A stretch of DNA of 53,516 bases from Acidiferrobacteraceae bacterium (lineage in GTDB: Bacteria; Pseudomonadota; Gammaproteobacteria; Arenicellales; UBA868), in the NCBI GenBank assembly GCA_002726415.1, contig PBSU01000006.1, positions 1 to 53,516 on the forward strand. Reading direction: 5' to 3'. The notes beneath the pieces were generated by a model. That model was given only the letters and a program-made list of their open reading frames with translations, searched no databases and was not told where the DNA came from. Below are positions 5,740-11,107 of the stretch, piece after piece. A program made the position numbers and the translations under genes. Position 1 is the first letter of the stretch, and every line of letters starts with the position of its first letter.

Positions 5740-5809
5740 TTTGGGCTCCAGAATCTGGGGTTCTTCTTTCCGGGGTGCGATTCTGACACAACCACTAGGT
5801 GTAAATCTG

Positions 5810-6991
5810 TTGGCAACAATCGAACACCCACCGACCAAGGTTCTTGGCCCCACTGCCCTCCAGGGGGTTTGTGTGCTCGGTCATCTGGCCAACGACTGGC
5901 TCCCCGGTGCCATATGGCTGTTAGCACCGGCAATCGGCCTGGCATTTGATCTTAAGCCCTCGCAAGTCGGCCTGCTGCTGGCGATCCACTCGATCGGCGC
6001 ATCGCTGGCCTATTTTCCTGCGGGCATTCTCGCAGACCGGGTTCAGGCACAAGGACGACTGCTTCTGGCGACTTTCTGGTGGGTGACGCTCGGCTATCTA
6101 CTCGCCTCCACCGCCCCGGGATTCTGGTCGCTCGCCCTGCTCCTCGCTCTGGGCGGTATGGGCGATGCCGCGTGGCATCCGATTGCGACCGGAATGCTGG
6201 TCCGACAGATGCCTGGACAACGCGGGCAGGTGCTGGGTATTCACGCTGTCGGCGGCACGCTGGCCGAGGTGCTATCACCCCTGCTGGTGGGTTTTCTCCT
6301 TGCGGTGCTGGATTGGCGCCAGGTTCTCCAGGTCTCAATTGTGCCAACGGCTATGATGGGCGTGGCATTCTTCTTTCTTGCCCGGCGCATCCCAATGCGC
6401 CACGCGAGCACCGCCCTATCGCGCGCTGACCTGAGCGCCTTCATCACCCAGTGGCGCAGCCGAACCGGAGTCCTGTTGATTGCCGGAATCGCGACTTACA
6501 ACATGGCATTAATTGCGCTGATGACGATGACCCCATTTTTCGCCCAGCGAACGTTAGGGTTCAGTCCAGCCCAGGCTGGGATAGCGTTTGCCATCGCGAT
6601 GCTGGCGGGCTCTATCGGTCAGCCACTGGTAGGACGACTGTCAGACCGACAGGGGCGTTTTGGTATTTTTTTAGTCAGCTCCATCGTAGCGGCCACACTC
6701 GCTATCGCAGTCGTCTTGTTTGACTCGCCACCGCTGGTTATCAGCCTGCTGACCCTAGCTATGGCTGTATTGGTCGCGATCCGTTCTGGTGTGCTCGCCA
6801 TGGCGGTGGATCACGCAAGCAAACACGAGGCCACAGCGCTGGGGTTCATCTTCGTAGTCCTCGATGGGGTAGGTGCGCTGGGTGCCGTACTCGCGGGGCT
6901 CGTGGGAGATTTCCACCTGGTCGCCAGTTTCGCCCTTGCGGGGGGCTTTTCTATCATCGCTGTGATCTTTATTGCCGCGAGCCGGCGCTGA
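5810..6991 (+). CDS. Major facilitator superfamily transporter
   Basis: About 393 residues form roughly twelve hydrophobic segments with the MFS loop after TM2 (GILADRVQAQGR) and its repeat in the second half (LVGRLSDRQGRFG). This places it in the inner membrane as a proton-coupled carrier, but the substrate cannot be read from sequence. No ATG sits near the expected start. TTG at 5810 with AGGTG eight bases before it gives the normal MFS length; an upstream TTG at 5741 has no ribosome site. It is divergent from the decarboxylase, so polyamine or amino acid efflux is possible, but this is inference. Confidence 0.85.
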   Translation: MATIEHPPTKVLGPTALQGVCVLGHLANDWLPGAIWLLAPAIGLAFDLKPSQVGLLLAIHSIGASLAYFPAGILADRVQAQGRLLLATFWWVTLGYLLASTAPGFWSLALLLALGGMGDAAWHPIATGMLVRQMPGQRGQVLGIHAVGGTLAEVLSPLLVGFLLAVLDWRQVLQVSIVPTAMMGVAFFFLARRIPMRHASTALSRADLSAFITQWRSRTGVLLIAGIATYNMALIALMTMTPFFAQRTLGFSPAQAGIAFAIAMLAGSIGQPLVGRLSDRQGRFGIFLVSSIVAATLAIAVVLFDSPPLVISLLTLAMAVLVAIRSGVLAMAVDHASKHEATALGFIFVVLDGVGALGAVLAGLVGDFHLVASFALAGGFSIIAVIFIAASRR

Positions 6992-7038
6992 ACAGCCTTA
7001 GGTGACTGCAGTCCGGAGTTGCTGATCGAATTCCGTTA

Positions 7039-7058
7039 TACTGTATATTTATACAGTA
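7039..7058. promoter_or_regulatory. LexA (SOS) box upstream of dnaE2
   Basis: The palindrome reads TACTGTATATTTATACAGTA, which differs from the gammaproteobacterial consensus CTGT-(AT)4-ACAG only in its AT centre. A -10-like TATACT (7037-7042) overlaps its left edge, so bound LexA would block the promoter. The first in-frame codon of dnaE2 follows within 16 bp. Confidence 0.93.
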
Positions 7059-7073
7059 TTGTCGGAAAACAAT

Positions 7074-10000
7074 ATGTCTGGCTATGCCGAATTGCACTGC
7101 ATATCAAATTTTACCTTCCTGCGAGGCGCTTCCCATCCCGCCGAACTGGTTCGCCGGGCTTCTGAACTTGGCTACCGGGCACTGGCGCTGACCGATGAAT
7201 GCAGTGTTTCTGGGGTAGTACGAGCTCATGTTGTCGCCCGGGAAGTTGGCCTGCATTTGGTGATTGGCAGTGAGTTCACCCTGGAAAACGGCAATGGCCT
7301 GGTTCTGTTGGCAACCAGCCGACAAGGATATCGCCACCTGGTCCGACTGATCACACACTCCCGCCGGGCCGCTGGCAAGGGCCGCTACATCTTGAAGACT
7401 GACCACCTTTGCTCAGAACGCCTGCAGGACTGCCTTGCCTTATTACCCTGTGACCCAGCACCAAAATCAAAAAACGTGTTGGCTGATCGCTACCAGACGC
7501 TCTCCCACCACGCCAAACGTATGCAGTCGATGATGCCTGGGCGGGCCTGGCTGGCAGTCGAGCAACCTGGTTATGGTGGCGATCGGAACCATCGTAAACA
7601 GTTGCAGATCTTGTCCCGCGAGGTCGGCATACCGATGGTGGCTGTTGGCAACGTACATATGCATGCACGTACCCGACAGCCTTTGCAGGACACCTTAACT
7701 GCGACACGACACAAAAAGTCAGTGGCTGAAATAAAACACGCCCTGGCGCCCAATGCCGAACGTCACCTGCGCACCCAAGCTGTTCTCGAGCGTATCTACC
7801 CACGCGGCCTGCTCGATGAAAGCGTAAAAATCGCCCAACGCTGTCGATTTTCCCTGGATGAATTGCGTTATCACTATCCCTGTGAGTTTGTCCCGGCGGA
7901 CCTCAGTCCAGCACAGTACCTGCGCCAATTGACTGAAACAGGCATGGCAAAACGATGGCCTGATGGGCCGACGGAAAAAGTAATGCACCAGATTGAGCAT
8001 GAGTTGGCTCTGATCTCAGAACTCAATTATGAAGGTTACTTTTTGACGGTATGCGACATCGTACGCTTTGCCCGCTCACGTAGCATCCTCTGCCAGGGTC
8101 GTGGCTCAGCGGCAAACTCGGCGGTATGTTTTGCCCTTGGCATTACTGAGGTTGACCCAGCACGCATGGAGATTCTGTTCGAGCGCTTTATCTCTCGTGA
8201 GCGTAACGAACCGCCGGATATTGATGTGGACTTCGAACATGAGCGCCGTGAAGAGGTGATGCAGTACGTATACCAGCGCTACGGGCGCGAGCGGGCCGCA
8301 CTGACCGGCGCTATCACCACCTATCGACCCCGCAGTGCGGTACGGGATATCGGCCGGGCGCTAGATCTCTCCCAGGATCAGATTGATTGCCTCGCTGGCA
8401 ATCTCGCCTGGTGGCGCGCCGGCCAGGTTGCACCTCAACAGGTACGAGAGATCGGTCTGGATCCAGAAGGACCCGTGCTACGGCGGCTACTGGCTCTGGT
8501 ACCCGAACTGGTCGGTTTTCCCCGTCATCTGTCACAGCACTCCGGGGGTTTTGTTATCTCCCACGAACCTTTGTGCGATCTGGTACCAATCGAGAATGCC
8601 GCCATGGCAGACCGAACCGTAATCCAGTGGGATAAAAACGACATCGACACTCTGGGCCTGCTTAAGGTGGACTGTCTGGCGCTGGGAATGTTGAGTGCAA
8701 TCCACCGGGCATTTGACCTTATCCGGCAATATCGCGACAGAACCCTGACTATGGCTACCGTGCCCGCCGAAGATTCCCTGGTGTACCAGATGATCAGCCG
8801 TGCTGATACCGTAGGTGTTTTCCAGATTGAGTCACGCGCTCAGATGGCCATGCTGCCAAGGCTGCAGCCGCGTTGCTTTTATGATCTGGTTATCGAGGTG
8901 GCGATCGTTCGGCCCGGGCCTATACAAGGAGACATGGTGCATCCCTACCTGCGCCGACGTGCTGGTACCGAGGAGATCACCTACCCCAGCGAAGCAGTTC
9001 GCGAAGTGCTTGAGCGGACACTCGGTGTACCGATATTCCAGGAGCAGGTGATTAAGCTGGCAATGGTAGCTGCAGGCTTTACTCCGGGAGAGGCAGATGG
9101 GCTGCGTCGGGCTATGGCTGCCTGGAAGCGACACGGCGGTCTGGACCATTACGAAACACGACTGATCGAAGGTATGCGTGAGCGTGGTTACAGCGAGACT
9201 TTTGCACGGCGTATCTACCAACAGATTCTCGGGTTTGGTGAATACGGCTTCCCCGAATCACATGCCGCGAGTTTCGCACTACTGGTGTATGTATCAGCCT
9301 GGCTCAAGTGCCACGAACCGGCCATATTCACCTGCGCCCTGCTCAACAGTCAGCCGATGGGTTTTTATGCGCCAACCCAACTGGTACAGGATGCGCGCCG
9401 ACATGGTGTAAACGTACTCCCTGTTGATGTTGCCGCAAGCTACTGGGACTGCACACTGGAACCTGGCGACTCAGACTTGGCATTGCGCCTGGGGCTAAGA
9501 ATGGTCAGATACCTCAGTTTGGCAGGTGCTGAGCGGCTGATCGACGCACGTCAGCAACAACCCTTTACCAGTGTCGAGGACCTCGCCCACCGCGCCACCC
9601 TGGACCAGGGCGACCTACGCGCACTGGCCAATGCAGATGCCCTATCGACTCTGGCACGCAGCCACCGGCGCCAGGCTGGGTGGGCAGCAAGCGGTATCGA
9701 AAAACCCTCCCCAGTATTCCCCAGACCCCATATCCGTGAAGCCGTACCCCTGTTGCGTGCACCACACGTTGGTGAGGCCGTCTGCGCAGATTACGCCAGC
9801 ACCGGGCTGACCCTGGGTCCACATCCACTAGCCCTGCTACGCGACGAGCTACAGTCACTAGGTACCATCACCAGCCGCGATATTGCCCGCAAGCACAACG
9901 GATGCCTCATACACACTGCGGGAATCGTAACAGCCCGCCAACGACCAGCCAGCGCCAACAGCGTCACCTTTGTCACGCTCGAAGATGAAACGGGTAGTAT

Positions 10001-10184
10001 CAACCTGGTGGTCTGGCAGCACCTGGCCAAACGCCAGCACCTGATACTGGTGGGCTCGCAGTTACTTGGTGTACATGGCCAGATTCAGCGTGCAGGCGAT
10101 ACCATACATATCATCGCCGGCAGGCTTGATGACTATACCGCCCTGCTGGGCAATCTCACGACGCGCAGCCGGGACTTTCACTAG
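7074..10184 (+). CDS. dnaE2: Error-prone DNA polymerase III alpha subunit (DnaE2/ImuC)
   Basis: The 1036-residue protein is a C-family polymerase of the translesion DnaE2 type. An N-terminal PHP domain opens with YAELHCISNFTFLRGASHP. The palm carries the catalytic acidic motif PDIDVDFEHERREEV and the later KVDCLALGMLSAI. The C-terminus has an OB-fold (TAGIVTARQRPASANS). It would copy damaged DNA with mutations after SOS induction. ATG at 7074 has GGAA six bases upstream; TTG at 7059 is an alternative. A LexA box directly precedes it. The usual partners imuA and imuB are not adjacent, which is unusual for this family. Confidence 0.95.
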   Translation: MSGYAELHCISNFTFLRGASHPAELVRRASELGYRALALTDECSVSGVVRAHVVAREVGLHLVIGSEFTLENGNGLVLLATSRQGYRHLVRLITHSRRAAGKGRYILKTDHLCSERLQDCLALLPCDPAPKSKNVLADRYQTLSHHAKRMQSMMPGRAWLAVEQPGYGGDRNHRKQLQILSREVGIPMVAVGNVHMHARTRQPLQDTLTATRHKKSVAEIKHALAPNAERHLRTQAVLERIYPRGLLDESVKIAQRCRFSLDELRYHYPCEFVPADLSPAQYLRQLTETGMAKRWPDGPTEKVMHQIEHELALISELNYEGYFLTVCDIVRFARSRSILCQGRGSAANSAVCFALGITEVDPARMEILFERFISRERNEPPDIDVDFEHERREEVMQYVYQRYGRERAALTGAITTYRPRSAVRDIGRALDLSQDQIDCLAGNLAWWRAGQVAPQQVREIGLDPEGPVLRRLLALVPELVGFPRHLSQHSGGFVISHEPLCDLVPIENAAMADRTVIQWDKNDIDTLGLLKVDCLALGMLSAIHRAFDLIRQYRDRTLTMATVPAEDSLVYQMISRADTVGVFQIESRAQMAMLPRLQPRCFYDLVIEVAIVRPGPIQGDMVHPYLRRRAGTEEITYPSEAVREVLERTLGVPIFQEQVIKLAMVAAGFTPGEADGLRRAMAAWKRHGGLDHYETRLIEGMRERGYSETFARRIYQQILGFGEYGFPESHAASFALLVYVSAWLKCHEPAIFTCALLNSQPMGFYAPTQLVQDARRHGVNVLPVDVAASYWDCTLEPGDSDLALRLGLRMVRYLSLAGAERLIDARQQQPFTSVEDLAHRATLDQGDLRALANADALSTLARSHRRQAGWAASGIEKPSPVFPRPHIREAVPLLRAPHVGEAVCADYASTGLTLGPHPLALLRDELQSLGTITSRDIARKHNGCLIHTAGIVTARQRPASANSVTFVTLEDETGSINLVVWQHLAKRQHLILVGSQLLGVHGQIQRAGDTIHIIAGRLDDYTALLGNLTTRSRDFH

Positions 10185-10225: not shown

Positions 10226-11107
10226 TTAGTCCAGATCGAAAGCGATAGCATTGGCTGCGCACGCTGCCTGAACAGTATTACGCAAAAGACAGGCGATCGT
10301 CATAGGGCCTACTCCACCCGGCACCGGCGTAATCGCTCCGGCCACAGCCTGTGCAGATGGATAATCGACGTCTCCCACCAATCGGGTTTTGCCTGCATCA
10401 CCGGCAACCCGGTTGATGCCGACATCAATCACCACCGCGCCAGGTTTAACCCAGTCGCCGGGTATCATTTCTGCCCGGCCTACCGCCGCAACGAGAATAT
10501 CCGCATCCCGACAGACACCGGGCAAGTCGGCCGTTCGTGAATGCGCAGTGGTAACGGTGCAGTTTTCGGCCAGCAACAGGGCGCCCATCGGTTTACCTAC
10601 AATATTGGAACGCCCCACCACGACGGCACTCTTTCCTGAAAGATCCCCGATCTGGTCTTTGAGTAACATCATGCATCCCAACGGGGTGCAGGGCACCAGG
10701 CCAGGTGCGCCGGTTGCCAGGCGACCCACATTGACAAGGTGAAATCCATCTACGTCCTTGTTAGGATCGATCGCGTTGATCACAGCGTGTGAATCGATTT
10801 GATTCGGCAACGGCAACTGCACCAGGATCCCATGGACCTTGGCGTCGTGATTAAGCTGATTGATCAGTTCCAGCAACTCCGCCTGCCCCGTGGTATCCGC
10901 AAGTTTGTGCTCGTAGGAGTTCATCCCCACTTCCAGCGTCTGCTTGCCCTTGTTGCGCACATAGACCTGGCTTGCCGGATCTTCCCCTACCAGCACCACC
11001 GCCAACCCCGGCACCAGGCCGTGCGCCTCTTTGAGTCGGTTTACCGATTCAGCGACTTTTTCTCTTAACTGCGCGGCAAATGCTTTGCCATCAATCCGTG
11101 TTGCCAT
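10226..11107 (-). CDS. folD: Methylenetetrahydrofolate dehydrogenase/cyclohydrolase
   Basis: The 293-residue bifunctional enzyme interconverts 5,10-methylene-, 5,10-methenyl- and 10-formyl-tetrahydrofolate with NADP+. Visible signatures are YVRNKGK with the catalytic Lys, GILVQLPLP, the D-K-DVDGFH segment, the Rossmann motif [13 protein letters not shown], and [10 protein letters not shown] near the end. ATG at 11107 has GAGGAG four bases upstream. It starts only 15 bp after fdsA, so it is very likely co-transcribed with formate dehydrogenase, tying formate oxidation to the folate C1 pool. Confidence 0.96.

Follow-up and report, generated by a model that had tools for sequence, protein, structure and literature searches.

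We analyzed a stretch of 53,516 nucleotides (hereafter the window; it lies on contig C6 in our numbering of genomes, contigs and loci by the letters G, C and L) at positions 1 to 53,516 of contig PBSU01000006.1 of assembly GCA_002726415.1, from an Acidiferrobacteraceae bacterium of the Arenicellales whose genome is available as 1.99 Mb in 75 contigs, 79.94% complete. The window carries a complete dnaE2 (imuC), whose product was recognized in a profile search as NF004225 'error-prone DNA polymerase' (1480.8 bits, cut-off 939), matches all of the PHP, alpha NTPase/palm, finger, HhH and OB domains of Pfam, and possesses catalytic aspartate motifs (PDIDVDF and LLKVD) that line up with those of solved Pol III alpha. 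The gene likely starts at ATG 7074 rather than at TTG 7059, because 19 of the 19 listed relatives have ATG, GTG or TTG at query residue 1, this position being extrapolated from the alignment for some of them.

An earlier note on this DNA had placed a near-consensus LexA box directly before dnaE2, which we confirm: TACTGTATATTTATACAGTA has a single location in the window with up to three mismatches allowed (being a palindrome, it matches on both strands), and none of 100 shuffles contained any match. The -10-like hexamer that the note saw overlapping the box is present as well, although a scan of 6900-7200 recognized no full sigma-70 -35/-10 promoter. Its description of the neighborhood is borne out by profile matches (PF07690 and NF010785): a major facilitator superfamily (MFS) transporter gene, which probably starts later than the listed TTG, ends 82 bp before the dnaE2 ATG, and folD follows on the other strand. 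The neighboring open reading frames (ORFs) of the window are none of imuA, imuB and lexA, the absence of the first two agreeing with the same note. The coordinates of these features, and of an inverted repeat discussed below, are collected in Table 1.

Table 1. Features around dnaE2, in window coordinates
Feature	Position	Strand	Remarks
dnaE2 (imuC)	7074..10184	+	Error-prone C-family DNA polymerase, 1036 aa; NF004225 and Pfam domains
LexA box TACTGTATATTTATACAGTA	7039..7058	+	20 bp; 16-base core CTGTATATTTATACAG at 7041-7056
-10-like TATACT	7037..7042	+	Overlaps the LexA box; read from the sequence
Imperfect inverted repeat, putative RNA hairpin	7031..7067	+	7031-7035 pairs with 7063-7067; 7038-7046 pairs with 7051-7059
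Shine-Dalgarno-like CGGAAA	7063..7068	+	5 bases before the ATG, within the 3' arm of the hairpin
MFS transporter gene	5741..6991	+	PF07690, 132.2 bits; co-directional, upstream of dnaE2
folD	10226..11107	-	NF010785, 490.4 bits; downstream neighbor of dnaE2, context only

The missing genes reside on another contig. Genome-wide, CTGTATATNNATACAG has only two perfect matches, one before dnaE2 and the other at C48:31967-31982, 47 bp upstream of a lexA gene that is followed by imuA and imuB, each of the three genes overlapping the next by 4 bases. The LexA encoded there scores 239 bits against TIGR00498 (cut-off 110.95), and its residues 3-198 of 201 align with the solved LexA repressor 7b5g, including AAG, GTSM and VTVK; ImuA scores 189.9 bits against NF033429 (cut-off 150). 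Two Y-family genes (PF00817) are present in the genome, namely dinB on C4 and, on C48, a degenerate imuB. In this ImuB the DMD aspartates and the glutamate of the DE motif, all present in DinB, are replaced and one aspartate of the DE motif is kept; its C-terminal region is conserved with that of cassette ImuBs, and a comparison of the protein with solved structures gave no match. UmuC was not seen, the PF00817 matches of the genome being DinB and ImuB, and more than two such matches were found in none of the 16 genus genomes searched.

The earlier note had left a choice between partners located elsewhere in the genome and a DnaE2 that works differently, and had proposed a search for imuA, imuB, umuDC and lexA. 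Our search of the genome returned the lexA-imuA-imuB unit and leaves the second option without support; with imuA-imuB in a separate unit behind a perfect LexA box, the arrangement is what the note would have called a simple cassette split. A CTGT-N8-ACAG palindrome stands before dnaE2, and the SOS reading of it holds because a lexA gene is present in the genome. A partner-free DnaE2 was dropped as a candidate, since lexA-imuA-imuB is found in the same genome. We consider it highly probable, from gene content and boxes, that dnaE2 is the polymerase half of a split, LexA-controlled ImuA-ImuB-DnaE2 mutasome, in which DnaE2 would most likely act in trans with ImuA-ImuB. LexA would repress two unlinked units, lexA-imuA-imuB and the solitary dnaE2, via near-identical boxes, and its RecA-stimulated self-cleavage would release both; ImuB, a Y-family protein devoid of the catalytic residues, would together with ImuA bring DnaE2 to the clamp for mutagenic lesion bypass. 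The genes, their boxes, the split and its conservation are seen in the sequences themselves, as is the covarying repeat described below; the binding of LexA, the induction and the protein complex are what we infer from known relatives.

Our family sample comprised 25 genomes (G000-G024), each from this genus or family. Aligned upstream regions place the dnaE2 LexA operator at the center of a longer inverted repeat. In the window, the fold of 7020-7076 has an energy of -14.7 kcal/mol (z -3.23, equalled by 1 of 200 shuffles) and includes internal loops. The exact arms extend past the 16-mer by 7.55 bp on average at 20 family dnaE2 loci. The corresponding mean is 0.95 bp for 21 clade lexA operators and 1.73 bp for a further 15 dnaE2 loci that are split or loosely linked (among these the row of L107 is mislocated, its LexA box lying outside the stretch measured). 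Exact arms of at least 7 bp are found at 17 of 22 aligned dnaE2 loci, the mean for random flanks being 0.27, with draws taken from the same locus and thus possibly including the true site.

The arms also covary. Over the 22 family loci (19 distinct), the 17 pairs of the hairpin are paired in 91.3% of cases, and seven of them vary on both sides, a number also attained in 10 of 500 shuffled alignments. For the 22 loci the covariation score is 0.265; shuffled alignments give 0.110 (none of 500 attaining the observed score), and sliding the structure gives no more than 0.092. The outer pair at alignment columns 9/36 takes the forms AU, UA, GC, GU and CG, every one of the 19 rows being paired there. 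A search of 6900-7300 for an Rfam family gave one chance-level match (21.1 bits, gathering threshold 43, minus strand). The lexA operators of the clade, which served as control, score 0.068 versus 0.056 shuffled (62 of 500); of the 21 operators used for arm lengths, 20 were kept for the accessibility computation below (L159, which has an N, was left out) and 19 for covariation (L163, with two overlapping boxes, was left out too).

The Shine-Dalgarno (SD)-like word lies in the 3' arm. In the window, the computed openness of this word is 0.29 in read-through RNA and 0.63 in RNA starting at the operator center; for the best SD-like word at each dnaE2 locus the values are 0.19 versus 0.55, read-through being lower in 20 of 22, and for the lexA control they are 0.46 versus 0.53, read-through being lower in 8 of 20. 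Computation thus predicts a conserved hairpin over the ribosome-binding site, with L128 and L132 as exceptions. An MFS gene lies upstream at 20 of the 22 hairpin loci (L127 lacks it, and L242 fell outside that check). The arms are absent in G023 (L132), where the upstream gene is divergent, and in the more distant L048. At L127 itself (G002:C38, a contig shared with L042) the operator matches close relatives such as L122 on its 3' side, but the sequence to its left is different and 1.49 kb of it contain no MFS gene; the locus was either rearranged or joined at the palindrome during assembly.

These features would fit a control acting on the messenger. The operator would have been extended into an RNA hairpin because dnaE2 sits close behind a co-directional MFS gene: read-through mRNA from the latter would carry the whole hairpin, hiding the ribosome-binding site so that DnaE2 is poorly translated, while SOS mRNA would start inside the operator, lack the 5' arm and be translated. 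We give roughly even chances to this step, that is, to the operator hairpin blocking translation of dnaE2 from MFS read-through mRNA. If it works as proposed, the hairpin would add a further lock, at the RNA level, to a mutator gene situated behind its neighbor's transcript. The nearest precedent is Bacillus subtilis sigG, for which the accessible parts of PMC5942855 propose that a long hairpin keeps read-through mRNA of the upstream operon from being translated, whereas mRNA made from sigG's own promoter cannot fold into it. However, sigG encodes a sporulation sigma factor, whereas the present hairpin is centered on the LexA operator of an SOS polymerase and is known from sequence only. Among the matches listed in a search of open-licence literature, there was no report of a LexA-operator hairpin hiding an SD sequence.

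Several observations weigh against a translational role. At L128 (G021), which lies behind an MFS gene, the SD word is more open in read-through RNA (0.95 versus 0.42); exact arms reach just 2 bp at L116 and L117, and the window's own arms are imperfect. Six of 16 dnaE2 loci without an MFS gene (L067, L080, L098, L106, L107, L108) have a co-directional upstream gene and no long arms, as judged from rough ORF calls that at L034 and L038 chose a shorter ORF than the MFS gene. The SOS start site of dnaE2 is assumed, from the -10-like hexamer only, and in the SOS-type RNA 7049-7100 the minimum-energy fold pairs part of the SD word, the centroid being open.

The main alternative, to which we grant slightly less than an even chance, is that the repeat is not translational: it would be either a DNA feature (a palindrome perfected by template switching, or an enlarged binding site for a protein) or an RNA structure that protects or terminates the MFS message or restricts re-initiation past its stop codon. 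The misfits of L128 and of several co-directional loci count in its favor. Template switching perfects quasi-palindromes, and could yield perfect arms here; however, the clade lexA operators share the same palindromic core and show no excess covariation (values above). For a wider protein site, fixed letters would be expected, yet the outer arms change letters and stay complementary. As to effects on the upstream gene, conserved structures just past stop codons are reported to affect re-initiation in the available text of PMC7518266, and the window hairpin begins 39 bases past the MFS stop (6991 to 7031); no terminator-like site was found after the hairpin, a point against this alternative. 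The loss of arms in G023, behind a divergent gene, also speaks against the non-translational alternative as a whole.

Returning to the split mutasome, its conservation can be read directly from the family genomes. dnaE2 is present in 24 of the 25 (not in G009) and imuB in 23 (not in G021 and G022), and in all 22 genomes that have both, the two genes are on separate contigs. The order lexA-imuA-imuB is found at 21 of 23 imuB loci, the other two (L147 and L171) being cut by contig ends; MFS and folD genes both flank 17 of 23 dnaE2 loci; L133, L139, L140 and L141 are cut by contig ends, and no upstream MFS match was obtained at L127 and L132. A search for LexA in 16 genus genomes detected a single one in 15 and none in G004. 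Two irregular loci were met in this survey: G010:C2:2981-6034 contains a second dnaE2-like gene, 51% identical to that of the window, in a genome listed with 7% contamination, and at G012:C29 (L165) the imuB match is in two pieces (residues 19-317 and 333-513), which may reflect a frameshift, a gap or misassembly.

Two facts sit less well with a split mutasome. No imuB match (E 1e-15) was obtained in the dnaE2-bearing genomes G021 (C29, L128; 93% complete) and G022 (C67, L131; 85%), and the clamp motif of ImuB comes down to LF at the position of DinB QLPLF: the sequence EDLF occupies this place, with a similar xLF in many, not all, relatives. Another segment, RPLWLL, was rejected as the clamp motif, being part of a conserved C-terminal block. 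The two imuB-less genomes would suit an improbable alternative in which DnaE2 works alone or relies on a different partner such as DinB or RecA, the distant imuA-imuB being separate or dispensable; yet both assemblies are incomplete, both loci are kept in 22 of the 25 family genomes, and the published account, in the parts accessible, pairs DnaE2A with ImuA-ImuB, both of which this genome encodes. That the split is an artefact of a fragmented metagenome-assembled genome (MAG) is very improbable: all family genomes seen are indeed fragmented (30 to 510 contigs), but both loci are contig-internal, with dnaE2 beside the MFS and folD genes and lexA-imuA-imuB flanked by unrelated genes of C48, and other assemblies show the same split.

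A broader view was obtained from named relatives (the best 80 of 585), with dnaE2 classed by its upstream sequence; many of these loci are on the same contigs as the G genomes, and the two sets are not independent. Where dnaE2 lies within 400 bp of imuB (43 relatives), a LexA box within 250 bp was found in 0 of 43, versus an own LexA box in 23 of 23 relatives with at least 1.2 kb of upstream sequence free of imuB. Eight relatives have the two genes 0.6-3.7 kb apart, five of them with a box, and six have too little upstream sequence, four of them with a box. The arrangement appears to have changed several times, because the split/adjacent label requires at least 5 changes on a quick tree of 81 rows; well-supported independent contrasts for box versus split amount to only three, all in the same direction (p 0.25). 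An in-between state is found in G036 (C6; L137, L169), with a perfect LexA box between imuB and dnaE2, about 1 kb apart, and possibly in G035:C16, where a perfect LexA box precedes dnaE2 and imuB is a few kb upstream. The contrast of 23/23 with 0/43 suggests that it is SOS control that selection preserves when the mutagenic cassette comes apart. Four loci labelled as Bordetella parapertussis or Klebsiella pneumoniae MAGs (L059, L077, L097, L112) have a dnaE2 that the quick tree places among environmental Proteobacteria, and are probably mislabelled.

The split itself is ordinary and already known, since split imu cassettes are described in the accessible text of PMC3901139 and PMC6511836. The mycobacterial case, for which the parts of PMC6511836 and PMC10421592 at hand describe the split cassette, ImuB as its hub and the clamp-binding motif of ImuB, is similar in design: imuA'-imuB and dnaE2 form two loci, both LexA-controlled, with a catalytically dead ImuB and DnaE2 as the polymerase (PMC6511836, PMC10421592, PMC3901139). 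Unlike in mycobacteria, lexA heads the imuA-imuB operon here, the box is of the CTGT-N8-ACAG type, ImuA fits the proteobacterial ImuA model and the operator of dnaE2 is predicted to form a hairpin. In Gamma- and Betaproteobacteria, contiguous lexA-imuA-imuB-dnaE2 operons (L049, L056, L074 and L087 among them) contain the same four genes behind one LexA box before lexA, their LexA being 54-71% and their DnaE2 60-63% identical to those of this genome; there dnaE2 comes after imuB with no box of its own (0/43), whereas the present dnaE2 is solitary and has a box to itself. No literature on Arenicellales and LexA was found among open-licence papers. The possible operator hairpin looks new, and together with the suggested narrow regulon it forms the noteworthy part of the system.

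The breadth of the regulon was estimated by motif scans. The AT-cored pattern CTGTWWWWWWWWACAG, which misses boxes with G/C-rich cores, has 25 sites in 17 family genomes (16 with at least one), all 25 at dnaE2 or lexA by coordinates; the pattern read backwards, as control, has 3. The looser CTGTATN4ATACAG with up to one mismatch gave 46 sites in 8 genomes (backward control, 9), 13 of them at lexA or dnaE2. The remaining 33 were dropped as other SOS targets: 28 are inside ORFs of at least 150 aa, and the other five comprise one in a BamE-like ORF, one beside rplP, two near contig ends and L279. This last, a one-mismatch LexA-like site at G017:C59:4951-4966, has no overlapping ORF of at least 60 aa and none of 80 aa starting nearby.

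According to the accessible part of PMC3323433, the core LexA regulon of alpha- and betaproteobacteria includes recA and uvrA. A recA match was obtained in 14 genus genomes, and in all 14 the 450 bp upstream of it are free of a LexA box according to a scorer that does recover the boxes of E. coli recA and G033 recA; recA also lacks a box at 7 of 8 loci outside the family, so that the lack of a box need not be peculiar to the family, and recA was not found in the source assembly (79.94% complete). The scans suggest that LexA is nearly dedicated to mutagenesis in this family, uvrA, recN and other repair genes not having been examined singly. The full picture, in which the LexA operator doubles as an RNA switch with a selected hairpin and the regulon is limited to mutagenesis (lexA, imuA-imuB and dnaE2), is put forward tentatively, as we hold it somewhat likelier to fail than to stand. 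A LexA regulon free of recA, if true, would allow a test of SOS as a mutagenesis switch versus a repair programme. Finally, an ORF of about 102 aa at G000:C25:14606-14848 (L033), beside a PTS enzyme I-like ORF, has a weak match to the C-terminal peptidase part of the LexA profile (19 bits, below the cut-off).

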